64,000 nt of DNA from assembly GCA_022785125.1 (NCBI GenBank), contig JALFRA010000021.1:1-64000 (forward strand), given 5' to 3'. Both the position numbers and the translations under genes were made by a program. Below, in pieces: positions 5,755 to 58,167 of the stretch (position 1 is the first letter of the stretch; each line of letters begins with the position of its first letter). The stretch comes from Clostridiales bacterium (GTDB taxonomy: Bacteria; Bacillota; Clostridia; Oscillospirales; Oscillospiraceae). Below the pieces are notes generated by a model. The model was not told the origin of the DNA. It worked only from the letters and a program-made list of their open reading frames with translations, and made no database searches.

Positions 5755-6656
5755 AGGCAGTCGCCCAGAATGGACCGCACGCCGTTTTCCACCACAGCCT
5801 CCTCCTCAGGAGTGAGGGAGCGGAAGGGGAAGCGGGGAGGACCCATGTGGAAGCCCTGCATCTCCAGCATCTTCTTGTGGGACATGATGGGCATAATCTT
5901 GCGGACCAGTCCCCGGAGCTGGAGCAGCTGTTTCTGGACCTGGCGGGCTTGCTCCAGACGGCCGGCCTGATAGTGATCCCAGAGCTGCTGGCACAGGGCG
6001 GGGAATACCGCGGCCATGGCCACGATACCGCCGTCGCCGCCCGACTGCAGGACGGGCAGCACCTGGGCGTCGTTGCCGGTGATCAGCTCAAAGCCCTGGG
6101 GCAGATCCAGACACTGAAATTCCTGGAAGGTGATAAAGTCCATGCTGCTGTCCTTCAGGCCTGCCACATTGGGGCAGGTGTCGCACACCTGCTGCAACAC
6201 CCGGGGGGTGATGGGGTTGTGGGTCATGCCGGGGATGTTGTAGAGATAGAGAGGCAGGGAACCGGACAGCCTGGCGGTCTCCTGGAAGTAGGAGACCAGG
6301 GCCGCCTCATCGTAGGGGTGGTAGTAGGGGGCGGTGACAGAGGCGGCGTGGGCTCCCTCGCTTTTGGCCCAGGCAAACAGGTCGGCCATATCGGCCTTGT
6401 CCATGGCGGTGGTGTTGAAGAGGATAAAGGTATCGTCAGGGGCCCCTTTGATGGCCGCGGTGAGCAGCTTCTTCCGCTCCTCCAGGGTCAGGTTGATGAA
6501 TTCTCCCGAGGTGCCGCAAACGAACACGCCCCCGATACCGGCCTTGGTAATGAATTGGGTGAGTTTGGTGTATTCCTCGTAATTGACGCTGCCGTCCGTG
6601 TGAAATGGGGTGAGCTGTGGGGCCGAGATGCCCCGCAGGCTGGGTGAGTGTGACAC
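5751..6656 (-). CDS. DapA/NanA-family aldolase, likely acting on a 2-keto-3-deoxy sugar acid
   Basis: 301 residues, a single TIM-barrel of the class I dihydrodipicolinate synthase superfamily. GTG start with AGGAGG seven bases upstream; the end overlaps uxuA by four bases. Key residues visible are the GTSGEF phosphate/carboxylate-binding loop (residues about 43-48), the proton-relay Tyr in YLYNIPGMT (about 137) and the Schiff-base Lys in VAGLKDSS (about 166). The family includes DHDPS, N-acetylneuraminate lyase, KDG aldolase and 5-keto-4-deoxyglucarate dehydratase. Coupling to UxuA favours KDG aldolase (pyruvate plus glyceraldehyde). Lysine biosynthesis DHDPS is less likely because no dap gene is near. 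Confidence 0.82.
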   Translation of the reverse strand: MSHSPSLRGISAPQLTPFHTDGSVNYEEYTKLTQFITKAGIGGVFVCGTSGEFINLTLEERKKLLTAAIKGAPDDTFILFNTTAMDKADMADLFAWAKSEGAHAASVTAPYYHPYDEAALVSYFQETARLSGSLPLYLYNIPGMTHNPITPRVLQQVCDTCPNVAGLKDSSMDFITFQEFQCLDLPQGFELITGNDAQVLPVLQSGGDGGIVAMAAVFPALCQQLWDHYQAGRLEQARQVQKQLLQLRGLVRKIMPIMSHKKMLEMQGFHMGPPRFPFRSLTPEEEAVVENGVRSILGDCL

Positions 6657-48993: not shown

Positions 48994-49026
48994 AAAAACG
49001 CCGGGGCAATCGCCCCGGCGTTTTTT
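48994..49026. terminator. Bidirectional terminator between the HAD gene and kamE
   Basis: Stem CGCCGGGGC / GCCCCGGCG with a 4-base loop, flanked by AAAAA and TTTTTT, so it can end both the rightward HAD transcript and the leftward lysine operon. A second perfect palindrome, GGACAACGGGG / CCCCGTTGTCC at 49036-49057, lies between it and the kamE stop. Confidence 0.9.
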
Positions 49027-49109
49027 GCGCAGAATGGACAACGGGGCCCCGTTGTCCTACAGAGAAAAAGAGGGGAAAAAGAGGAAAAATCGAAAAATCC
49101 CAATTTTGA

Positions 49110-49898
49110 CTATTTGCCCAGGCGGCGAACCATTTCCTTGGCGCAGAAGGTAGCCACGTCGTCGGCATAGGTGCCGGCACCGAAGCCGGCGTCATAGCCC
49201 AGCTCCTTGGCCAGAGCGTGGGTCACACGGGCGCCGCCGCAGCAGAAGATGTACTTCTCACGGACACCCTCGGCCTCGGCCAGCTCGATGAGCTCTGTGA
49301 GGTTGTGGATGTGTACGTCCTTCTGGGTCACAGTCTGGGACACCAGCAGCACGTCGGCATTGACCTCGGCGGCCTTCTTGAGGAACTCCTCGTTGGGCAC
49401 CTGGGAACCCAGGTTATAGGCCTCGACCATCTCATAGCGCTCCAGGCCGTAGTGGCCGGCAAAGCCTTTGCGGTTCATGATGGCGTCGATGCCCACGGTG
49501 TGAGCGTCGGTGCCGGTGGAGGCGCCCACCACCACCAGCTTGCGGCCCAGGCGCTCCTTCAGGAACTCGTCGGTCTCGTGCATATCCATGGCCTCGTCAG
49601 CCACGGTCTGTACCACGATCTCATTGTAGTTGATGGAGTGAGTCAGAGAGCCGTACACCACATAGAAGGTGAAGGACTCGTCCAGCTTCTGGCGGAGAGC
49701 CACGTTTGGGTCGGCCAGGCCCATCTTCTGAGCCATGAGCACGGCGGCCGCGGCGCCCTTGTCGTCGTCCTTAACGGGCAGGGTGAAGGAGAGCTGCACC
49801 TTGCCGTCGTTCATGGTGTCGCCATAGGGTTTCAGCCGGGTCAGGTCCAGCGTGGTGTCAAGGTCCTTATCGCGAATCTGATACAGTCCGGAACTCAT
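49110..49898 (-). CDS. kamE: Lysine 5,6-aminomutase, beta (B12-binding) subunit KamE
   Basis: 262 residues. With KamD it moves the terminal amino group of beta-lysine to C5, giving 3,5-diaminohexanoate, using adenosylcobalamin and PLP. The B12-binding Rossmann domain (about 125-262) starts RKLVVVGASTGTDAHTVGID and contains the D-x-H-x-x-G cobalamin loop with the lower-ligand His in DAHTVGID; the PLP-binding Lys of this subunit lies in the same RKLVV stretch. The N-terminal part dimerises with KamD. The ATG overlaps the kamD stop by four bases (ATGA), as expected for a 1:1 complex. Last gene of the lysine operon. Confidence 0.95.
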   Translation of the reverse strand: MSSGLYQIRDKDLDTTLDLTRLKPYGDTMNDGKVQLSFTLPVKDDDKGAAAAVLMAQKMGLADPNVALRQKLDESFTFYVVYGSLTHSINYNEIVVQTVADEAMDMHETDEFLKERLGRKLVVVGASTGTDAHTVGIDAIMNRKGFAGHYGLERYEMVEAYNLGSQVPNEEFLKKAAEVNADVLLVSQTVTQKDVHIHNLTELIELAEAEGVREKYIFCCGGARVTHALAKELGYDAGFGAGTYADDVATFCAKEMVRRLGK

Positions 49899-51463
49899 TT
49901 GCCGGCACCCCCTTTCATCATGGGCTCAAGGAAGGGGTTGAAGTACCCGGCTGCCTTGGTCACAACGCCGTCCAGGCCCTTGCCGCCGTCGCGAGGACGC
50001 TTGATGTCGGCAAAGATGCCCCGCTCCAGGGTCTCGAAAATACCCAGCTGCTCGATCTGGCCCAGCAGGTCGGTAGCCTTGTGCAGCACGTCGGCAGCAC
50101 GGTTCTGCATGATGCCGCCGTCCTTGAAGACGATCTCGCTGCCCAGGTCCTGCATGGTGCGGAAGATGTACTGAGCATTCTGGATGGCCAGGAAACGGTC
50201 GGACAGGAAGGGAGTGTGGATAGCCTCGGTCATCATACCCAGCAGGTGGATCTTCTGCTGAGTCAGGATGGTCACCATGTTGAACAGGGCGTCCTGAACG
50301 TGGCCGCGGAAGATGTTGCCGGTCATGAACTTGGTGGGAGGCATATACTTCAGAGGAGCGTTGGGGAAGATCTCCCGGGCCATCTCGGCCTGGGCCAACT
50401 CATACAGGAAGCCGTTCTCCACGTCGGGGTCGATCTCGAAGGCGTGACCCAGACCCATCTGCTCCTCGGGCAGGCCGGCCCGCAGGGCGAAAGCCTCGTT
50501 GAGGAACTGGGAGGCCAGCACGGTGTGAGCCTCTTCCACGGCGTCGGCGGTAGTCAGGTAGTTGTCCTCACCGGTGTTGATGACCACGCCGGCATAGGCG
50601 TTGATGGCTCGGGAGAAGGACTGGTCCACCAGGGTACGCTGCATATTGATGTCGCGGAACAGAATGCCGTACAGAGCGTCGTTCAGCATCACGTCCAGAC
50701 CCTCGAAGGCGCCCATGGCGGCGATCTCGGGCATACACAGGCCGGAGCAGTAGTTACACACACGGATGTAACGGCCCAGCTCCTCGCCCACCTTATCCAT
50801 AGCCTCGCGCATCAGGCGGAAGTTCTCCTGGGTGGCGTAGGTGCCGCCGAAGCCCTCGGTGGTGGCGCCGTAAGGCACATAGTCCAGCAGGGACTGGCCG
50901 GTGGTACGGATCACGGCGATGACGTCGGCGCCCTGGCGGGCGGCGGCGGTAGCCTGCACAACGTCCTCATAGATGTTGCCGGTGGCCACGATCAGGTAGA
51001 TCCAGGGACCCTGCTTCTCGCCGCCGTGGGTGGCGATGAAGTCCTCGCGGCGCTTGCGGCGGGCGCGGATCTTGGCCAAGCTGGCCTCCACGATGGGGTC
51101 CAGAGCGGCGTGGATCTCGGTCTCGCTGTGAGTGGGCAGAGCGGTCAGCTCCAGCTCGTCCTTGGCAACAGCCTCGGCGATGGCCTGGGGGTCCTTGCCG
51201 GTCTCCACCATGGCGTTGCCGATCCAAAAGGCCACGCCCTGGGGCAGAGCGCCCTTATCCATCAGATGGTCCACCACCACGTTGGGCAGGGGCACGTCAG
51301 CGGCGTCCACACCGTCGATGCCCAGCAGGCGGCAGATGGTACGCTCCACGGCCACGGTGGTGCAGCCGTCGATGAAACGCTGGGTGTCGTCCGCAACCCG
51401 GGAAGCGTGGGCACGGGCCTGTTCCACCAGCTTAAAATCAAGATTCAGCTTGGATTCCAACAT
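49895..51463 (-). CDS. kamD: Lysine 5,6-aminomutase, alpha subunit KamD
   Basis: 522 residues, the size of the large (TIM-barrel) subunit. It carries the catalytic barrel that binds substrate and the reactive end of PLP and adenosylcobalamin. Characteristic segments: YLIVATGNIYEDVVQATAAA (about 175), RTTGQSLLDYVPYGATTEGF (about 208), VCNYCSGLCMPEIAAMGAFE (about 256) and PPTKFMTGNIFRGHVQDALF (about 378). Overlaps kamE by four bases; 83 bases after kamA, with a strong hairpin between. The ribosome site (GGAAGTG) is weaker than others in the operon. Confidence 0.95.
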   Translation of the reverse strand: MLESKLNLDFKLVEQARAHASRVADDTQRFIDGCTTVAVERTICRLLGIDGVDAADVPLPNVVVDHLMDKGALPQGVAFWIGNAMVETGKDPQAIAEAVAKDELELTALPTHSETEIHAALDPIVEASLAKIRARRKRREDFIATHGGEKQGPWIYLIVATGNIYEDVVQATAAARQGADVIAVIRTTGQSLLDYVPYGATTEGFGGTYATQENFRLMREAMDKVGEELGRYIRVCNYCSGLCMPEIAAMGAFEGLDVMLNDALYGILFRDINMQRTLVDQSFSRAINAYAGVVINTGEDNYLTTADAVEEAHTVLASQFLNEAFALRAGLPEEQMGLGHAFEIDPDVENGFLYELAQAEMAREIFPNAPLKYMPPTKFMTGNIFRGHVQDALFNMVTILTQQKIHLLGMMTEAIHTPFLSDRFLAIQNAQYIFRTMQDLGSEIVFKDGGIMQNRAADVLHKATDLLGQIEQLGIFETLERGIFADIKRPRDGGKGLDGVVTKAAGYFNPFLEPMMKGGAGK

Positions 51464-51502
51464 CGATCACTTCCATTCTTTGTCAGTTCAAAAACGGGGG
51501 GA

Positions 51503-51533
51503 AGCGGATCGCCGCCGTGGGCGGCGATCCGCT
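51503..51533 (-). terminator. Strong hairpin between kamA and kamD
   Basis: 14-bp perfect stem AGCGGATCGCCGCC / GGCGGCGATCCGCT with a 3-base loop. On the minus strand it is followed by TCCCCCCGTTTTT, a late and interrupted U-run, so it should terminate only in part or protect the kamA message. Its position inside the operon would set a higher level of KamA than of KamDE. Confidence 0.6.
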
Positions 51534-51546
51534 GTCTCCTTTTGGA

Positions 51547-52800
51547 TTACTCCTCGTGATGAGAACGCTTGTGGCGCTCCAGGCCGGCGGGCTCCATGGA
51601 CAGAGCCTGGCCGCGCTCCAGACCGGCCACACCCATGAGCTCCTTCTTCTTCTTGCCGGTGCAGTAGTCGCACTGACAATCGGTGTAGTGCTCGGGCTCG
51701 GTGTAAGTGGTGATAACACCCTCGTAGTTGCGCAGGATGACCTTCTTGGGGGTCTGGGAGATGACGTACTGAGGCATGACGGGAGTCTTGCCGCCGCCGC
51801 CGGGGGCGTCCACCACGAAGGTGGGCACGCAGTAGCCGGAGGTGTGGCCGCGCAGGCCCTCGATGATCTCGATGCCCTTGCTGACGGGAGTACGGAAGTG
51901 CTCCAGGCCCATGGACAGGTCGCACTGATAGATGTAGTAGGGACGCACGCGGATCTTGACCAGCTCGTTGACCAGCTTCTTCATGGTGTAGACGCAGTCA
52001 TTGATGCCGGCCAGCAGCACGCTCTGGTTACCCAGGGGGATACCGGCGTCGGCCAGACGGGCACAGGCGGCGGCAGCCTCGGGGGTGATCTCGTTGGGAT
52101 GGTTGAAGTGGGTGTTCAGCCAGATGGGGTGATACTTCTTCAGCATATTGCACAGCTCGGGGGTGATACGCTGAGGCAGCACCACGGGAGTACGGGAGCC
52201 GATGCGGACGATCTCCACGTGGGGGATCTCGCGCAGCTTGGCAATGATGTACTCCAGACGCTCGTCGCTCACCAGCAGGGCGTCGCCGCCGGACAGCAGC
52301 ACGTCGCGGATCTGGGGAGTGTTGCGGATGTACTCGATGGCCTGATCCACCTGATCCACGGGCAGGCCGGCGTCGTTCTGACCGGCAAAGCGACGGCGGG
52401 TGCAGTGACGGCAGTACATGGAGCACTGGTCGGTGATCAGCAGCAGGCAGCGGTCAGGATAGCGGTGAGTCAGACCGGGAGCGGGGGAGTCCTCATCCTC
52501 GTGCAGGGGGTCCAACAGATCGGCGGCGGACTGATGCAGCTCCTTGCCGGTGGGAACAGCCTGCAGACGGACGGGATCGTTGGGATCGCCGGGCTGGATC
52601 AGGGACAGATAATAAGGAGTGATGGCCATGCGGAGGGTACCCAGGCAGGCTTTCACGCCTTCCTCTTCTTCGGGGGTCAGATCCACATACTTCTTCAGGT
52701 CCTCCAGAGTCTCGATGCGGTTCTTGACTTGCCAGTGCCAGTCGTTCCACTGCTCATCAGTCACATCGGGAAACAGGATCTTACGGCGGGACTCTACCAT
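51547..52800 (-). CDS. kamA: Lysine 2,3-aminomutase KamA
   Basis: 417 residues. Radical-SAM, PLP-dependent enzyme that converts L-lysine to L-beta-lysine, the first step of lysine fermentation. The Fe-S/SAM site is the Cys triad in DQCSMYCRHCTRRRFAG (about 125-141). LSGGDALLVSDERLEYI is the SAM-binding strand (about 170), and the PLP Lys is in VDAPGGGGKTPVMPQY (about 335). C-terminal CQCDYCTG is the zinc-binding pair typical of KamA. Ribosome site AAAGGATG upstream of the ATG. It is separated from kdd by about 430 bases that contain a duplication and a hairpin element. Confidence 0.96.
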   Translation of the reverse strand: MVESRRKILFPDVTDEQWNDWHWQVKNRIETLEDLKKYVDLTPEEEEGVKACLGTLRMAITPYYLSLIQPGDPNDPVRLQAVPTGKELHQSAADLLDPLHEDEDSPAPGLTHRYPDRCLLLITDQCSMYCRHCTRRRFAGQNDAGLPVDQVDQAIEYIRNTPQIRDVLLSGGDALLVSDERLEYIIAKLREIPHVEIVRIGSRTPVVLPQRITPELCNMLKKYHPIWLNTHFNHPNEITPEAAAACARLADAGIPLGNQSVLLAGINDCVYTMKKLVNELVKIRVRPYYIYQCDLSMGLEHFRTPVSKGIEIIEGLRGHTSGYCVPTFVVDAPGGGGKTPVMPQYVISQTPKKVILRNYEGVITTYTEPEHYTDCQCDYCTGKKKKELMGVAGLERGQALSMEPAGLERHKRSHHEE

Positions 52801-53024
52801 AACAAGGTCATCCTTTCTAAATCGGTGTAGGGATGCGCCATCCGCAGGCGTCAGGGACCGGAAACCGGAACGGGGAGAAAGGGTTGGGGAGGAGTGTTTC
52901 TCCGTCGGGACCGGGGCCCGGAATGAGCGGCCGCGGAACGATCACATCAATCAGCTCATCTGTCAACGGGACAGGTAAGACACAGGGTAAACAGGGTATG
53001 ATCTGGAGATCGGTCAAACAGAGG
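52801..53024. other. Spacer between kamA and the duplicated kdd tail
   Basis: No gene. GC-rich with several short palindromes, and GTTGACAGATGAGC on the minus strand is a lone possible -35. I cannot support a promoter here, so kamA would depend on read-through from kce-kdd or on an unseen promoter. Confidence 0.4.
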
Positions 53025-53077
53025 CTTACAGATACTTCTTCTCGAAATAAGCCTTCAGCTGAGGATTCTCACGCAGC
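53025..53077 (-). repeat. 53-base duplication of the 3' end of kdd
   Basis: Identical to 53229-53281, which encodes the last 17 residues of Kdd and its stop (ending ENPQLKAYFEKKYL). The copies are 204 bases apart in direct orientation. The outer copy is a relic downstream of the intact gene, so the duplication did not break kdd. Confidence 0.92.
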
Positions 53078-53110
53078 GCCCCACGCAATGTTCCATTGCG
53101 CGGGGACCCC

Positions 53111-53228
53111 GTGATTTGACATCCTAGGGGCAAATGAATTGCCCCTGCGGGAATGCTGCGCGTTCTGCGCGCCAAAAGGCGCGGCCGGCTGTGCCGGCGT
53201 CCGAGCTGCACAGACAGCTCAGAATCAC
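53111..53228. repeat. Small hairpin-rich element between the two kdd tails
   Basis: Between the copies lies a compact set of hairpins: AGGGGCAA / TTGCCCCT, CGCGCC-AAAA-GGCGCG, GCCGGC-TGT-GCCGGC and GAGCTG / CAGCTC. The ends show an imperfect inverted repeat, GTGATTTGAC against GTGATTCTGAGC. It has the build of a MITE or REP-type non-coding element; no transposase is present. Confidence 0.5.
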
Positions 53229-53229
53229 C

Positions 53230-54270
53230 TTACAGATACTTCTTCTCGAAATAAGCCTTCAGCTGAGGATTCTCACGCAGCTCGGACAGGGTAATCTCGG
53301 CGTGGTCCTTGGTGTAGCCGTTGCCCACGATCATGGTGACGTCCTTGCCGCAGCCCTCGGCGCCCAGGGCAGCCTTGGCAAAATCGGTAGCCATGGAGAA
53401 GAAGTACACCACGCCGTTGTCATGGACGGGCAGGATGGCGGCCATCTCGCAGGCGGGCACGTTCACGATCAGGATGGAGACGTCGTACTCCTTGCCGTTG
53501 TTGACAGCCAGGGACTTCTCCAGAACCTCGGTGGGGTTGGTAGCGGAGCCCACGATAGCGTGGTGGCAGAGGTTCATGCTCTTCAGCAGGTCGGCATCCT
53601 CCTGGCAGATGACCAGGGCAACCACGTTGCCGGTGGGGCCAACGCGCTTCATGGCCTCGTAGCAGCACATCATGCCGCCCTTACCGGCGCCGCCCAGGAT
53701 GAGCACGGAGTCACCGGGCTTCACCAGCTTGGCGGTCTGGGCAGGAGCACCAGCCACGTCCAGAGCAGCCAGGGCCAGCTCCTCGCTCATGTCGTCGGGC
53801 AGCTTGGCATACAGGCCGGACTCAAACAGGATAGCCTGAGCCTCCACGTCCACACGGTCGATTTCGGGGTGGATGGCCTTGATCTTGTTGATCTTCAGGG
53901 GGGTCAGGGACAGGGACACCAGGGAAGCAATCTTGTCGCCCACCTTCAGATCGATCTTGCCCTGCAGGTCCTCACCGATCTCACGGACGGTGCCGATGAA
54001 CATACCGCCGGAACCGGTGACGGGGTTCTGCATCTTGCCGCGCTCGCCCACGATGTCCAGGATCATCTGCTCAGTGCGGGCCAGGTCCTTCTCACAGGCC
54101 TCATAGATCTGAGTGAAGGAAGCGGAGTCGATGTTCAGAGCGGTCACGTCGCACAGGATCTCATTGGACCAGCACTCCATGGTGTTGTCAATCTTCTTGG
54201 CGGCCTGGGTCAGCAGTCCCTGGGGCTCGATGACGCGATGAGTGCCGTACTTGTTGCCTTTCTTCTGCAT
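53230..54270 (-). CDS. kdd: L-erythro-3,5-diaminohexanoate dehydrogenase Kdd
   Basis: 346 residues from ATG 54270, which has CAGGAGG upstream; a longer start at 54291 has none. It deaminates and oxidises 3,5-diaminohexanoate to 5-amino-3-oxohexanoate with NAD(P)+. The MDR-type fold shows the nucleotide loop VLILGGAGKGGMMCCYEAMK (about 165-185). There is also GTHRVIEPQGLLTQAAKKID near the N-terminus and the family segment NEILCDVTALNIDSASFTQI (about 40). Second gene of the riboswitch-led operon, 79 bases after kce. Its last 17 codons are duplicated downstream. Confidence 0.93.
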   Translation of the reverse strand: MQKKGNKYGTHRVIEPQGLLTQAAKKIDNTMECWSNEILCDVTALNIDSASFTQIYEACEKDLARTEQMILDIVGERGKMQNPVTGSGGMFIGTVREIGEDLQGKIDLKVGDKIASLVSLSLTPLKINKIKAIHPEIDRVDVEAQAILFESGLYAKLPDDMSEELALAALDVAGAPAQTAKLVKPGDSVLILGGAGKGGMMCCYEAMKRVGPTGNVVALVICQEDADLLKSMNLCHHAIVGSATNPTEVLEKSLAVNNGKEYDVSILIVNVPACEMAAILPVHDNGVVYFFSMATDFAKAALGAEGCGKDVTMIVGNGYTKDHAEITLSELRENPQLKAYFEKKYL

Positions 54271-54349
54271 AGAAAGTTCCTCCTGTTTCATTTAGTGTTG
54301 GTTTGGGGAGATATATGGTTGGGGAGATAAGTAAAACAAAGGAATGGGA

Positions 54350-55168
54350 TCAGGCCAGAGACAGAATCTTCCGGGCCTCATCGGGGGTGGCGATCTCGCG
54401 GCCCAGCTCCTTGGCCAGACGGACCACCTTGGCCACCAGCTCGCCGTTGGAAGCGGCCTTGTGGCCCTTTTCCAGGTAGATGTTGTCCTCAAAGCCAACG
54501 CGGACGTTGCCGCCCATCACGATACCGGTGGCAACCATGGGCCAGGCGCCCCGGCCGATGCCGGTGACGGTCCAGGTGGAGCCGGCGGGGATCTGCTTCA
54601 CCAGGTAGTCCAGGTTGCCCACAGTGGCGGGGGTGCAGCCGGACACGCCCAGCACGAAGTTGAACTGCATGGGAGCGCCGGGGACCAGACCCTTGTTGGC
54701 CATATTCACGATGGTGTCCAGGTGGCCGATCTCAAAGCACTCGTACTCGGGCTTGATGTTGTTTTCCAGCATCCGCTTGCCGAAAGCCCGCATGGTGGGC
54801 ATATCATTGACGAAGATGTCGTCACCGAAGTTGCAGGTGCCGCAGTCCAGCGTGGCCATCTCGGGGCACAGCTCGGTGGGCTGAAGCCGCTCCTCGGGGG
54901 TCATGCCGGTGGCACCGCCGGTGGAGGGGATCAGGATCACGCCGGGGCAGGCCTCCTTGATGGCGTCCAGAATCACACGGAACCGCTCCCGGTCCTGAGT
55001 GGGGGTGCCGTCATCCTCACGAACGTGGACGTGGATAACGGCGGCGCCCGCGTCAAAGGCGCTCTTGGCCTCACGGACCATTTCCTCCACGGTGTAGGGA
55101 ACAGCGGGGTTATGCTCCTTGGTGACCTCTGCGCCGCAGATGGCCGCGGTGATGATAAGCTTTTCCAT
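54350..55168 (-). CDS. kce: 3-keto-5-aminohexanoate cleavage enzyme Kce
   Basis: 272 residues from ATG 55168, with GAGGAGG close behind the terminator U-run of the leader. It condenses 5-amino-3-oxohexanoate with acetyl-CoA to give acetoacetate and 3-aminobutyryl-CoA. BKACE-family TIM-barrel: metal-binding pair in AAVIHVHVREDDG (about 45-53), PSTGGATGMTPEERL (about 80) and the CoA-end residues TGIGRGAWPMVATGIVMGGN (about 205), where a Glu/Arg network follows (VRVGFEDNIYLEKG). The activity is specific to lysine fermentation when found with kdd. First gene after the riboswitch. Confidence 0.95.
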   Translation of the reverse strand: MEKLIITAAICGAEVTKEHNPAVPYTVEEMVREAKSAFDAGAAVIHVHVREDDGTPTQDRERFRVILDAIKEACPGVILIPSTGGATGMTPEERLQPTELCPEMATLDCGTCNFGDDIFVNDMPTMRAFGKRMLENNIKPEYECFEIGHLDTIVNMANKGLVPGAPMQFNFVLGVSGCTPATVGNLDYLVKQIPAGSTWTVTGIGRGAWPMVATGIVMGGNVRVGFEDNIYLEKGHKAASNGELVAKVVRLAKELGREIATPDEARKILSLA

Positions 55169-55181
55169 GACACGCCTCCTC

Positions 55182-55233
55182 AAAAAATAAAGCTACCCCG
55201 CCGGTAGGAGATGTTGTCCTCCGGCGAGATAGC
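55182..55233 (-). terminator. Leader terminator before kce, containing the second P1-strand copy
   Basis: Minus strand 13-bp stem GCTATCTCGCCGG (55233-55221) / CCGGCGGGGTAGC (55204-55192), two G-U pairs, with an inner AGGA/TCCT helix, then TTTATTTTTT. The 5' arm starts with GCTAT, part of the second copy of CATGAAGCGCTAT (55241-55229). The U-run abuts the GAGGAGG of kce. A U7 run at 55251-55245 has no stem directly before it. Confidence 0.85.
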
Positions 55234-55290
55234 GCTTCATGAACAAAAAAACACTACTCATGTCCGCGGGAGGGGAAACTCTCGTTCAGA

Positions 55291-55464
55291 CACAAATAGC
55301 GCTTCATGTGACTCATGACAATCCGTGAGCACTGGGCCCACGGCTCAGGGGGAGGGCTGTGCGATTCACATCCCCCTTCGGCGGAGCGGACATTCACAGA
55401 ACACATTGGGCTCGCCTGCCCTTATCATTGCTCTGCTACCTTGCACTCCGCGCCTCTATCCATG
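55291..55464 (-). promoter_or_regulatory. Lysine riboswitch (L box) leading the lysine fermentation operon
   Basis: 174 bases, the size of the lysine aptamer. Reading the minus strand: P1 5' strand CATGGATAG, then the conserved AGAGGCGCGG, then AAGGTAGCAG (cf. the conserved AGUAG-type segment). The junction CTCCGCCGAAGGGGG holds GCCGAAG, the family hallmark. CCTGAGCCGTGGGCC and CACGGATTGTCATGAG follow, and the closing GAAGCGCTATTTGTG pairs CTATTTGTG with CATGGATAG. Order and spacing agree with known L boxes. It sits about 20 bases after the predicted transcription start. Because the genes degrade lysine, lysine would be expected to turn them on, unlike the common off-switch. Confidence 0.85.
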
Positions 55465-55489
55465 CGTATTATTCACTTTTGACAAAAAC

Positions 55490-55518
55490 ACTATAACCCA
55501 GTCAATTTGGTTTGTCAA
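55490..55518 (-). promoter_or_regulatory. Consensus sigma-A promoter of the kce-kdd-kamADE operon
   Basis: Minus strand TTGACA (55518-55513), 17-base spacer, TATAGT (55495-55490). Predicted start near 55483, giving a leader of about 315 bases. A perfect palindrome TTACCA-AA-TGGTAA at 55594-55607, upstream, could be an operator. Confidence 0.8.
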
Positions 55519-55623
55519 CTATTTTTTGTGAAATTAGGCTTACAAAATTTTTCTTTGTTACATAGACTTTTGTGCGCTACAGCGGGACAGCAATTACCAA
55601 ATGGTAACCAGAACTGGAAGGGC

Positions 55624-55660
55624 GAAAACTCCGGCAGGCGGCATAAACCGCCTGCCGGAG
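55624..55660 (-). terminator. Terminator of the kamB-kamC transcript
   Basis: 13-bp stem CTCCGGCAGGCGG / CCGCCTGCCGGAG with a 6-base loop, followed by TTTT on the minus strand, a few bases after the kamC stop. Confidence 0.82.
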
Positions 55661-55670
55661 CAGGAAAACA

Positions 55671-57167
55671 TTACAGGTCGGCCTGGAAGAGTTCCATGAG
55701 CGTATCGTCCAGCTTGAGCAGCCGGCATACCCGCAGGGCGTCCCGGGGACAGGGGGCGCCGGGAGGGGCGGGAAGGAGCCGGTAATCCATCCGGCGGGCG
55801 ATCCGCTTGCGGGGATCGTCCCCCTCGTCGCCCTGGATGTCCCGTACCAGACCAGCCACCTGATAGTGGGCGGCGGCCACGTCGGACACCCCGTCGTAGT
55901 GGGTGGTCATGAGTGCCACGCAGTCCAGGCTGCTCAGATGGCGCACCAGAGCCCGGGCCAGGGCTGCACCCTCCTGGGGGTTGGTGCCGCGGGCGAATTC
56001 GTCCAGAGCCACAAAGAAGAACTGGCCGTGGGTTTCCCGCAGAAGCTTGTCCAGCAGGTGGACCTCCTTGCCGAAGGAGGACAGGCCGCCGGCGCCCGGG
56101 CCGCTGTCGGCCAGGATCAGCTCCACCCGGTGGAACAGTGGCAGGGAAGCGGACTGGGCAAAGACAAAGAAGCCGCACTGGCACAGAAGCAGGGAGAGCA
56201 CAGTGGAGCGAAGAGACACAGTCTTGCCGCCCATGTTGGCGCCGGTGATGACGGTGCACCCCGGCTTCAGGTCCAGATCCAGCAGGGTGAACTGCTCGCC
56301 CCGCTCAGCCAGATCCTCCTCTACCTGGGGATGACGTACCCCCCGGAGGGTGATGGATTTGTCGGTGCTGAGGGCGGGCCGCACGCAGTTGTACCGCAGA
56401 GCCAGCTTGGCCTTGGCCACAATGAGATCCAGCCGGCCCAGAGTCTCCATGTTGTCCAGGAAGGCCTGCTTGTAAACCATCAGCTTGCCGGTGAGCATCC
56501 GGCGGACCTCCAGCTCCAGCTTGTCCTCCTCCACCGCAAGGACGCGGCGTTTCTCCATCAGGGGGCCCCGTTTGTCCTCCATGGTCATGCGGATGGCCTT
56601 CTCCAGCTTGGCCTTTTCCGCCCGCAGGGGTGCCAGGTCGTTGTGGTAGGAATTGACAACGGAGAAGGTGGGCAGGCGGCGTCCCTCCGGGTCCATCAGC
56701 CCCAAAGCGTCGGCCAGGGAGGGGAAGGACAGCCCGGCCATGGGGGGCAGGGCGGCGTAGGCCTGGATCAGCTGCTCCAGGGTGACCAGGAAGTGCTTGA
56801 TCTCAAAGAGCTCCACCAGATCGAAGGGGGCGCCGGGGTCCCGGTCGAAGGAGCCGCGGATGTCGTGAAACAGGGGCAGGCAGCGGGTCACACCCCGCAG
56901 GGCAGCGGCGGCGTCCTTGCGCTCGGCTTCGGTCAGCCGTACCGGGCCGCAGCCGCAGCGCTCTGTCTGGGGGGCGGTGGTGCCGGCGTTCCACAGCTCC
57001 ATGGCCAGGGCCACGTTGTCCAGCTCCTCCTCCAGGGCGGCCTCCTCTCCCGGGCCGTACCACCGCAGGGAGCGGGCGGCCGCCTTGCCGAACGGCGACA
57101 TGGGACTCAGCCGGTTCAGTACCCACTGAAACCCTGCGTTTTCCCGCAGTTCATGCGTCAGTTCCAT
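55671..57167 (-). CDS. kamC: MutS-like ATPase KamC, presumed lysine 5,6-aminomutase reactivation subunit
   Basis: 498 residues. The C-terminal third is a MutS-type ABC ATPase: Walker A CTVITGANMGGKTVSLRST (about 315), signature SSFGKEVHLLDKLL (about 370), Walker B FFFVALDEFARGTNPQEGAA (about 390) and a MutS-like ALMTTHYDG switch His. The N-terminal part is helical, with a clamp-like coiled coil (ALRAEKAKLEKAIRMTMEDK), but no mismatch-binding domain. KamB and KamC proteins occur next to kamDE in lysine fermenters and are described as a reactivase for this B12 enzyme. DNA repair is unlikely. It overlaps kamB by 17 bases. Confidence 0.87.
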   Translation of the reverse strand: MELTHELRENAGFQWVLNRLSPMSPFGKAAARSLRWYGPGEEAALEEELDNVALAMELWNAGTTAPQTERCGCGPVRLTEAERKDAAAALRGVTRCLPLFHDIRGSFDRDPGAPFDLVELFEIKHFLVTLEQLIQAYAALPPMAGLSFPSLADALGLMDPEGRRLPTFSVVNSYHNDLAPLRAEKAKLEKAIRMTMEDKRGPLMEKRRVLAVEEDKLELEVRRMLTGKLMVYKQAFLDNMETLGRLDLIVAKAKLALRYNCVRPALSTDKSITLRGVRHPQVEEDLAERGEQFTLLDLDLKPGCTVITGANMGGKTVSLRSTVLSLLLCQCGFFVFAQSASLPLFHRVELILADSGPGAGGLSSFGKEVHLLDKLLRETHGQFFFVALDEFARGTNPQEGAALARALVRHLSSLDCVALMTTHYDGVSDVAAAHYQVAGLVRDIQGDEGDDPRKRIARRMDYRLLPAPPGAPCPRDALRVCRLLKLDDTLMELFQADL

Positions 57168-58167
57168 CTTGTTCCTCCTTCACGTTGACCACCGGCAGGC
57201 GGATGGCCTGCCGCAGGGCGGAGATAAATTGATCTGGTTCAAAGTGCCAGCCGTAGGCCGACCAGGGGTTGGCCGCCACGGCGGCGATGGTCAGCTCCCG
57301 GCGGACAGCCAGCTGGCCGCCATTGCGCTGGAACAGCTCCAGAGCGGCACGGCCTGCCAGCAGATGGGTGGCGTCCTGGGTGACCAGGGTGGTGGGAGCT
57401 CCCCGGCGGGCCAGGGTTTTGAGCAGGGGATCGGTAACGCCTCCCGCCGCCCACACCACCAGAGGACGGCGGGGCAGCTTGTTCCACTTGGGGCTGCCGC
57501 CCTCGTCCAGAGGTAGCTCCAGATGGGTGCCGTCCAGCTCGAACAGAGCAAAGCGGTCCTCCACGCCCTCCAGAGCGGAACGAAGGCCGGCGTGCTCCGG
57601 CACTTTCCGGTCAAAGAGCCAGCAGGTGTGGGCGGTCTCCGATACCACCAGGTCCATATCCCGGTCCAGAGACGCTCCGGTACACAGCAGGGCCACGCCC
57701 TCCACACCGGCGCCAGCCAGAGACTTCCGTCCGGCAGCCCCATCGATGAGGACCCGCTGGGCCCCCAATTCCATAAAACGGGCGGTGAGGGGCCTCAGCT
57801 GTCCGGCGGCGGAGGGACCGGCCAGCTGGACATAGCCGTCAGACAGGGTGCGGAAAATAGCCACCGGTCCCAGCGGGGTCATTACGTCGGTGAGATCCAC
57901 CACCTCCAGAGTGGCGTCGCACAGCGTGATCATGCCCCGGGCGGTGGCAAACAGATCGCCGGCTTTCAAATACAGATCGGGTTTTTCCGTCCCGGTGACC
58001 AGGTCGGTGCGTTCTCCGTCCCGGCCCACCGAGGTGAGGGCCAGCCGTTCCTCCCCCAACTCGGCCATCAGGCGGCGCATGGCGGTGGTCTTGCCCGCGT
58101 TCTTGCACAGGCCGATCACGGTCACGGGGGAGGCATCCCCCACCAGCGGCGCTAACAGATGTTCCAA
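57151..58167 (-). CDS. kamB: KamB, partner of KamC in aminomutase reactivation
   Basis: 338 residues from TTG 58167, seven bases after GGGAGG; the upstream in-frame ATG (58236) lies inside the promoter, so it cannot be used. A P-loop opens the protein (PVTVIGLCKNAGKTTAMRRL, about 15-34). Further segments are ALTSVGRDGERTDLVTGTEK (about 45), FRTLSDGYVQLAGPSAAGQL (about 106) and RVLIDGAAGRKSLAGAGVEG (about 140). These match the KamB family found beside KamC. It probably binds nucleotide and helps swap damaged cobalamin out of KamDE (known for reactivases generally; inferred here). First gene of its own two-gene transcript. Confidence 0.83.
   Translation of the reverse strand: MEHLLAPLVGDASPVTVIGLCKNAGKTTAMRRLMAELGEERLALTSVGRDGERTDLVTGTEKPDLYLKAGDLFATARGMITLCDATLEVVDLTDVMTPLGPVAIFRTLSDGYVQLAGPSAAGQLRPLTARFMELGAQRVLIDGAAGRKSLAGAGVEGVALLCTGASLDRDMDLVVSETAHTCWLFDRKVPEHAGLRSALEGVEDRFALFELDGTHLELPLDEGGSPKWNKLPRRPLVVWAAGGVTDPLLKTLARRGAPTTLVTQDATHLLAGRAALELFQRNGGQLAVRRELTIAAVAANPWSAYGWHFEPDQFISALRQAIRLPVVNVKEEQDGTDA

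Follow-up and report, generated by a model that had tools for sequence, protein, structure and literature searches.

One lysine riboswitch aptamer with two closing strands: a putative serially read ON switch ahead of a lysine fermentation operon

Introduction

How would a lysine riboswitch (L box) control genes whose products degrade lysine? The leader studied here raises this question, as an aptamer of the RF00168 family stands in it upstream of the lysine-degradation genes kce-kdd-kamA-kamD-kamE. The preliminary description of this DNA saw something close to a paradox in the arrangement and reasoned that lysine should switch the operon on. It also supposed that L boxes near catabolic genes might have a precedent. 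An article by Rodionov from 2003 (NAR) is said to be the source of the claim that lysine riboswitches can act as ON switches. The precedent is in print: the accessible text of PMC5584792 gives lysine riboswitches on kal and kce as positively regulated in Clostridium sticklandii, Fusobacterium nucleatum and Thermoanaerobacter, and that of PMC2258182 mentions ON-logic lysine riboswitches, so the paradox is not a new one. What appears to be new, as far as the searched literature shows, is the presence of two closing-strand copies and two terminator-like hairpins on a single aptamer.

Results

The leader contains an L box, a promoter and a terminator-like hairpin ahead of lysine fermentation genes

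The window, i.e., the whole analysed stretch of 64,000 nucleotides, matched RF00168 on the minus strand at 55289-55466, over model positions 1-182, with 67.3 bits (gathering score, 30; E, 2e-15). This was the single match to the family in the leader, and the rest of the Rfam matches in the window were two tRNAs only. In the alignment to RF00168, the five-helix junction and the core motifs AGAGG, GCCGAAG, UGUCA and RAGNGCUA were all found, with U in place of the consensus C at the position preceding UGUCA. By its covariance match and core motifs, the element is a lysine riboswitch.

Upstream of the aptamer, there is a sigma-70-type promoter, TTGACA-17-TATAGT (55518-55490, minus strand; 11/12 match), from which transcription would start near 55483. 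It was the sole promoter found in a scan of positions 49000-57500. As shuffled sequences gave 1.8 matches on average, the match by itself proves little; both the -35 and -10 hexamers were retained in all 18 Flavonifractor leaders described below. The 10-mer TAGTGTTTTT occurs twice on the minus strand, in the -10/start region of this promoter (55484-55493) and at the U tract of the first hairpin described below (55247-55256).

At the other end of the leader, a 13-pair stem (55233-55221 with 55204-55192; hairpin 55233-55192), found as an inverted repeat and in folds, is followed by the U tract TTTATTTTTT (55191-55182), the likely ribosome-binding site GAGGAGG (55181-55175) and the ATG of kce at 55168. 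We refer to this hairpin as terminator 2. The genes that follow on the minus strand were all named by NCBIfam equivalog models above cut-off: kce, encoding the 3-keto-5-aminohexanoate cleavage enzyme (54350-55168; NF052387, 418.8 bits); kdd, 3,5-diaminohexanoate dehydrogenase (53230-54291; NF052381, 270.2 bits); kamA, lysine 2,3-aminomutase (51547-52800; TIGR03820, 623.3 bits); and kamD and kamE, the alpha and beta subunits of lysine 5,6-aminomutase (49895-51463; NF052384, 918.1 bits, and 49110-49898; NF052385, 391 bits). Thus, the promoter, the L box, the terminator-like hairpin and the gene order reported in the preliminary description were all recovered, the L box as a full-length covariance match.

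The KamC and KamB reactivase genes lie immediately upstream, on the strand of the operon, and a strong terminator-like hairpin (CTCCGGCAGGCGG...CCGCCTGCCGGAG TTTT; 55625-55660, minus strand) after kamC divides kamB-kamC from the kce promoter. A perfect 14-pair hairpin is located between kamA and kamD (51503-51533); since the terminator scan called it only on the plus strand, opposite to the operon, it is perhaps an mRNA processing or stability element. The kal gene is absent from the operon in the window and was found on another contig of the same genome (L315, G000:C11:41082-41438). This genome has two L boxes, neither of them at the kal locus; the second precedes an asd-like gene, named by reading its translation.

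The closing strand of the aptamer is repeated downstream

The preliminary description called this architecture complete and readable. A direct-repeat search revealed a feature that it had missed. The 13-mer CATGAAGCGCTAT, which comprises the 3' strand of P5 (P5', CATG), the joining segment J5/1 (AAGCG) and the start of the 3' strand of P1 (P1', CTAT...), occurs once within the aptamer (copy 1, 55308-55296) and once downstream of it (copy 2, 55241-55229; both on the minus strand), with 13/13 identical positions. The 5' strand of P1 (CGCATGGATAG; 55466-55456) is common to both copies by pairing, and the CATG of the P5 5' strand (55317-55314) is able to pair with the CATG of either.

The folds placed the P1' strand inside a terminator stem in both cases. 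That of copy 1 doubles as the 5' arm of an extended hairpin spanning 55305-55248 (MFE -26.1 kcal/mol), also overlooked previously, which ends in a U7 tract (55251-55245) whose first bases additionally pair at the foot of the hairpin; we call it terminator 1. The P1' strand of copy 2 forms the start of the 5' arm of terminator 2. The leader therefore has two serial hairpins with U tracts, i.e., two putative expression platforms. Since the P1' strand is the 5' arm of the hairpin, two roles are open to each closing strand, closure of the aptamer and formation of its own terminator-like hairpin, and these would be mutually exclusive. The ON logic proposed in the preliminary description fits this predicted overlap, even though the architecture that it described was not complete.

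We consider it probable that the leader acts as a transcriptional ON riboswitch with serial readout, a single aptamer body being used for both readings. When the polymerase is at the first U tract, the lysine-bound aptamer closed by copy 1 (aptamer 1) would hold P1' in P1 and so block terminator 1; without lysine, terminator 1 would form and transcription would stop. After the polymerase has passed, the stable hairpin of terminator 1 would pull copy 1 away and come to extend P5, whereupon copy 2 would reclose the same aptamer body, the P5 5' strand pairing with CATG and the P1 5' strand with CTATC. Lysine would then have to hold this second form (aptamer 2) to block terminator 2. Termination at both hairpins, its block by lysine at each of them, and the handover to copy 2 are what we infer from the modelled structures. 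As lysine would be required twice in succession for read-through, the OFF state is expected to be deep and the response steeper, and the lysine fermentation genes would be made only when lysine is plentiful.

Both copies are conserved in Flavonifractor

The genus of the source organism was judged from kdd relatives (98% identity) to be Flavonifractor. An L box of the type seen in the window was present in 18 of 20 genus genomes (its own and 19 others); G016 and G019 had one L box match each, of the other type. We aligned the leader in the window with those of 17 congeners, excluding L049-L051, which belong to other genera. All 18 leaders could be aligned over copy 1, copy 2, the U tract and terminator 2. 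The 13-mer of copy 2 was identical in 18/18, and that of copy 1 in 17/18, L048 having CATGGAG... at this place, while the linker and the terminator loops varied. If the leader were an ordinary single-gate ON L box and copy 2 a relic of a local duplication, such exact retention of copy 2 between variable flanks would not be expected. That single-gate ON L boxes precede kal in a number of relatives speaks for this explanation, which we nevertheless regard as highly improbable.

Terminator 1 paired the P1' strand at 8/8 positions and had a T run of 6-8 in 18/18 genus leaders. In its stem, 286/288 cells paired, as opposed to 69-177 in slid registers; the stem registers were picked by best pairing, which favours structure, and the slides serve as a control for terminator 1 only. 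Its arms comprised 8 distinct 3' arms versus 2 distinct 5' arms, and the changes in it were 28 one-sided pair-keeping, 0 two-sided and 2 breaks. The 5' arm is hardly free to vary, because the same strand is also part of the aptamer. In terminator 2, 208/216 cells paired in the best-pairing register; pairing was kept in 9 two-sided and 21 one-sided changes and broken in 8 cases.

The U tract of terminator 1 bears on the possibility that terminator 2 alone terminates transcription. Copy 1 would then capture the aptamer early, and the hairpin would later free it to copy 2, so that the hairpin would work as a timer, with a single, late reading of lysine and a delayed ON response. The G-U-rich stem of terminator 1 in the window would suit a hairpin of this kind, as would the hairpin of leader L090 from another lineage, which has no real U tract. 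Against it, T runs of 6-8 are retained throughout the genus, runs of at least 4 end the corresponding hairpin in 8/9 other lineages, with L138 represented by its copies 2 and 3, and in L088, L111 and L133 the first hairpin resembles a usual intrinsic terminator. A timer is thus unlikely.

Ligand-free folds favour termination at both gates

Energies were calculated with a nearest-neighbour model, which includes neither the ligand nor tertiary contacts. At the first gate of the leader in the window, aptamer 1 had -82.1 and terminator 1 -93.9 kcal/mol. At the second gate, the state with both terminators had -130.5, terminator 1 with aptamer 2 -125.5, and aptamer 1 with terminator 2 -117.5 kcal/mol. 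We extended the calculation to 26 leaders, dropping L138 and setting the terminator-2 windows of L045 and L133 by hand. In 26/26, the lowest ligand-free state was the terminator at both gates, so the default should be OFF. The margin in favour of the terminator was 3.6-16.5 kcal/mol at the first gate, relative to aptamer 1, and 5.6-18.8 kcal/mol at the second, relative to aptamer 2; because of these differences, lysine binding must either overcome a large gap or act kinetically.

The combination of aptamer 1 with terminator 2 was less stable than that of terminator 1 with aptamer 2 in 17/26 leaders and more stable in 9/26, so the handover to copy 2 is not favoured everywhere. This compatibility of aptamer 1 with terminator 2, together with the ability of the P1 5' strand to pair with either copy, could also mean that copy 2 is only an anti-terminator strand. 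In such a case, the P1 5' strand, free without lysine, would pair with copy 2 and open terminator 2; with lysine, aptamer 1 would retain this strand and terminator 2 would form, turning the operon OFF, which would be paradoxical. The folds argue against this, since terminator 2 belongs to the lowest ligand-free state in 26/26 leaders and the genes would be off in both states. Moreover, an anti-terminator would need only CTATC, yet P5' and most of J5/1 of copy 2 are kept in 18/18 genus leaders, although they lie outside the 13-pair stem of terminator 2 in the window; P5' of copy 2 follows the P5 5' strand in L122, as described below; and the U tract of terminator 1 would be left without a role. 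We therefore find an anti-terminator function of copy 2 quite improbable.

The succession of forms expected for serial readout was also seen in folds of lengthening RNA. For the leader in the window, the MFE structure passed from aptamer 1 to terminator 1, then to terminator 1 with aptamer 2, and finally to both terminators. Among the same 26 leaders, aptamer 1 was the lowest structure at some stage in 25 (never in L111), an aptamer-2 stage appeared in 22 (missing in L048, L086, L122 and L133), and the end state with both terminators was reached in 23. Aptamer 2 would thus arise naturally in the course of folding, as an intermediate that lysine might stabilise.

Repeated closing strands occur in other lineages

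We sampled more widely by a kdd alignment search, retaining the top 80 of its 580 relatives, and by further kdd searches in 299, 200 and 391 genomes with the neighbourhoods around kdd. More L boxes were found ahead of kal, kce or kdd, and the closing strand was repeated in some form in nine lineages besides Flavonifractor. In L088, L090, L111, L122, L133 and L222, copy 2 was identical to copy 1 at 11/14 or more positions (shuffle P at most 0.02), and the second copies in L087 and L086 were not significant by plain identity (P of 0.085 and 0.265). L138, with its aptamer placed by Rfam, also had extra closing-strand copies. RF00168 scored above cut-off in 7 of the 8 double-copy loci scanned and below it in L133; the record of L086 also had an RF00168 match. 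According to NCBIfam, the first gene is kal in L087, L088, L111, L122, L133 and L138, and kce in L090; that of L086 reads as kce from its sequence, outside the NCBIfam scan.

A second copy with at least 11/14 identities occurred in 6/21 catabolic L boxes outside Flavonifractor, the 21 being those with Rfam coordinates (Flavonifractor, L086 and L133 were left out, and the others were judged by the shuffle test). It occurred in 0/69 L boxes not from kdd neighbourhoods, among which the highest value was 10, in three; these controls were taken irrespective of the gene downstream of each, and L009 was dropped as too short. A blind search of 391 genomes of the class with an IUPAC pattern of the double copy matched 17 genomes, and the reversed-pattern control matched more; the pattern was therefore set aside as evidence. 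When mapped onto a kdd tree with 55 rows, the double form required a minimum of 5 to 6 gains or losses, which all fell within one 36-row clade, with the reservation that the label "none" in this tree is unreliable owing to an incomplete L box regular expression: Rfam found L boxes in 4 of 9 tested "none" loci (13 were so labelled), and L097 was missed by the expression as well.

To compare pairing, one row per lineage was taken for 10 lineages, the row of L138 comparing its copies 2 and 3. Between copy 2 and the P1 5' strand, 56/60 positions paired, as opposed to 16-28 in slid registers. When copies were dealt among lineages, the mean was 50.1 paired cells and 56 was reached with a P of 0.0007, a value that is not strict, as the lineages are related. 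The pairs of P1 5' strand and copy 2 differ in sequence between lineages, e.g., GGATAG-CTATCC in L090, CAATAG-CTATTG in L088 and L111, and GAATAG-CTGTTC in L087. Such pair-keeping differences are a further argument against copy 2 being a mere duplication relic. P5' of copy 2 paired with the P5 5' strand at 4/4 positions in 8/10 lineages and at 3/4 in L111, P5 being undefined in L138. In L122, both copies have GACG, matching CGTC, while the other leaders with a defined P5 have CATG as the P5 5' strand. J5/1 of copy 2 fitted RAGNGC in 7/10 lineages and departed from it in L086, L222 and L138; first copies with ATG, GTG or TTG at the site of departure exist as well (L094, L101, L107 and L112). 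In several lineages other than Flavonifractor, J5/1 of copy 2 also makes up the base of the stem of terminator 2, so that its conservation there is not independent evidence.

One leader apparently has three gates

The L138 leader (Lachnospiraceae), which precedes kal, has its aptamer at 6290-6465 according to Rfam. Within L138:6290-6640, three hairpins with U tracts follow one another. Each of them begins with CTATTG, preceded by a segment similar to J5/1, and CAATAG forms the P1 5' strand. Apparently, this leader contains three closing-strand copies and three gates.

It seems an even question to us whether the repeated-closing-strand form recurs on lysine fermentation operons of Oscillospiraceae, Lachnospiraceae and other Clostridia and, jointly with this, constitutes a class in which successive closing-strand copies of about 13 nt, each serving a separate terminator as its 5' arm, are swapped in so that a single aptamer body is queried two or three times in series.

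Discussion

The arrangement described here resembles several known systems without coinciding with any of them. The kal and kce switches of PMC5584792 likewise have an RF00168 aptamer before lysine fermentation genes, with positive control stated there; the accessible part of that article describes no repeated closing strand or second terminator. In ON riboswitches in which the aptamer overlaps the terminator, such as the adenine pbuE type (PMC2258182 and PMC9756952, as far as their text was available), the ligand similarly keeps an aptamer strand from a terminator stem; these have one closing strand and one terminator, whereas here there are two of each on one aptamer body.

The pseudo-cooperative tandem riboswitches covered in the accessible text of PMC9481103 include 14 double lysine riboswitches, in which two serial terminators respond to the same ligand, as would be the case here. 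Those tandems consist of two complete riboswitches. In contrast, the leader in the window has two serial expression platforms by folding and a single RF00168 match rather than two complete aptamers for the same ligand, and the repeat covers no more than about 13 nt of the aptamer. Among the architectures listed in the available part of PMC9481103, none combines a single aptamer body with two closing strands. In the c-di-GMP riboswitch Bc1 of Bacillus thuringiensis (PMC11218506), one aptamer is likewise followed by two terminators, T1 and T2; there, the ligand unfolds T1 and leaves T2 almost intact, and the text that we had access to makes no mention of a repeated closing strand. The design was also undescribed in the accessible portions of the other literature searched, including PMC11477304, PMC3766115, PMC7160235, PMC9337991, PMC2965389, PMC12452182 and PMC9756952; as most subscription journals lay outside this search, the negative is no proof of absence.

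If serial readout of one aptamer is correct, the leakage in the OFF state would be the product of two leaks, and the response would be steeper than that of a single gate. Serial, pseudo-cooperative control would then be possible without a second aptamer, a repeat of a short closing strand and a terminator being enough. In a class of such leaders, the repeated checking of the ligand would be similar to kinetic proofreading, achieved by repeating about 13 nt rather than a whole aptamer. This would be an economical route to very tight ON switches, usable also in synthetic RNA devices, and it is relevant to the conditions under which gut bacteria turn to lysine fermentation.

Other designs were found around the same genes. 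Single-gate leaders of kal are many (e.g., L100, L104, L109, L121 and L128), and one, L224, precedes kdd. A further L box that looks single-gated, with P1' in a terminator-like hairpin with U5, was found on a contig other than that of kdd in the L088 genome (L299, G914:C61:11236-11411, minus strand). In leaders of the Clostridium type (L091, L092, L095 in part, L235 and L266), and also in L135:4929-5260, the strand opposite P1' could, as judged by eye, pair with a separate downstream terminator arm. Such leaders, which precede kal in L091, L092, L135, L235 and L266, seem to rely on a relay anti-terminator and would thus represent another ON design; a U tract is also present on the first hairpin of L135.

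Lysine 5,6-aminomutase requires B12. A cobalamin riboswitch was detected at L109:16869-17006 (43.5 bits), within the 17-kb lysine fermentation locus of an Anaerolineaceae genome.
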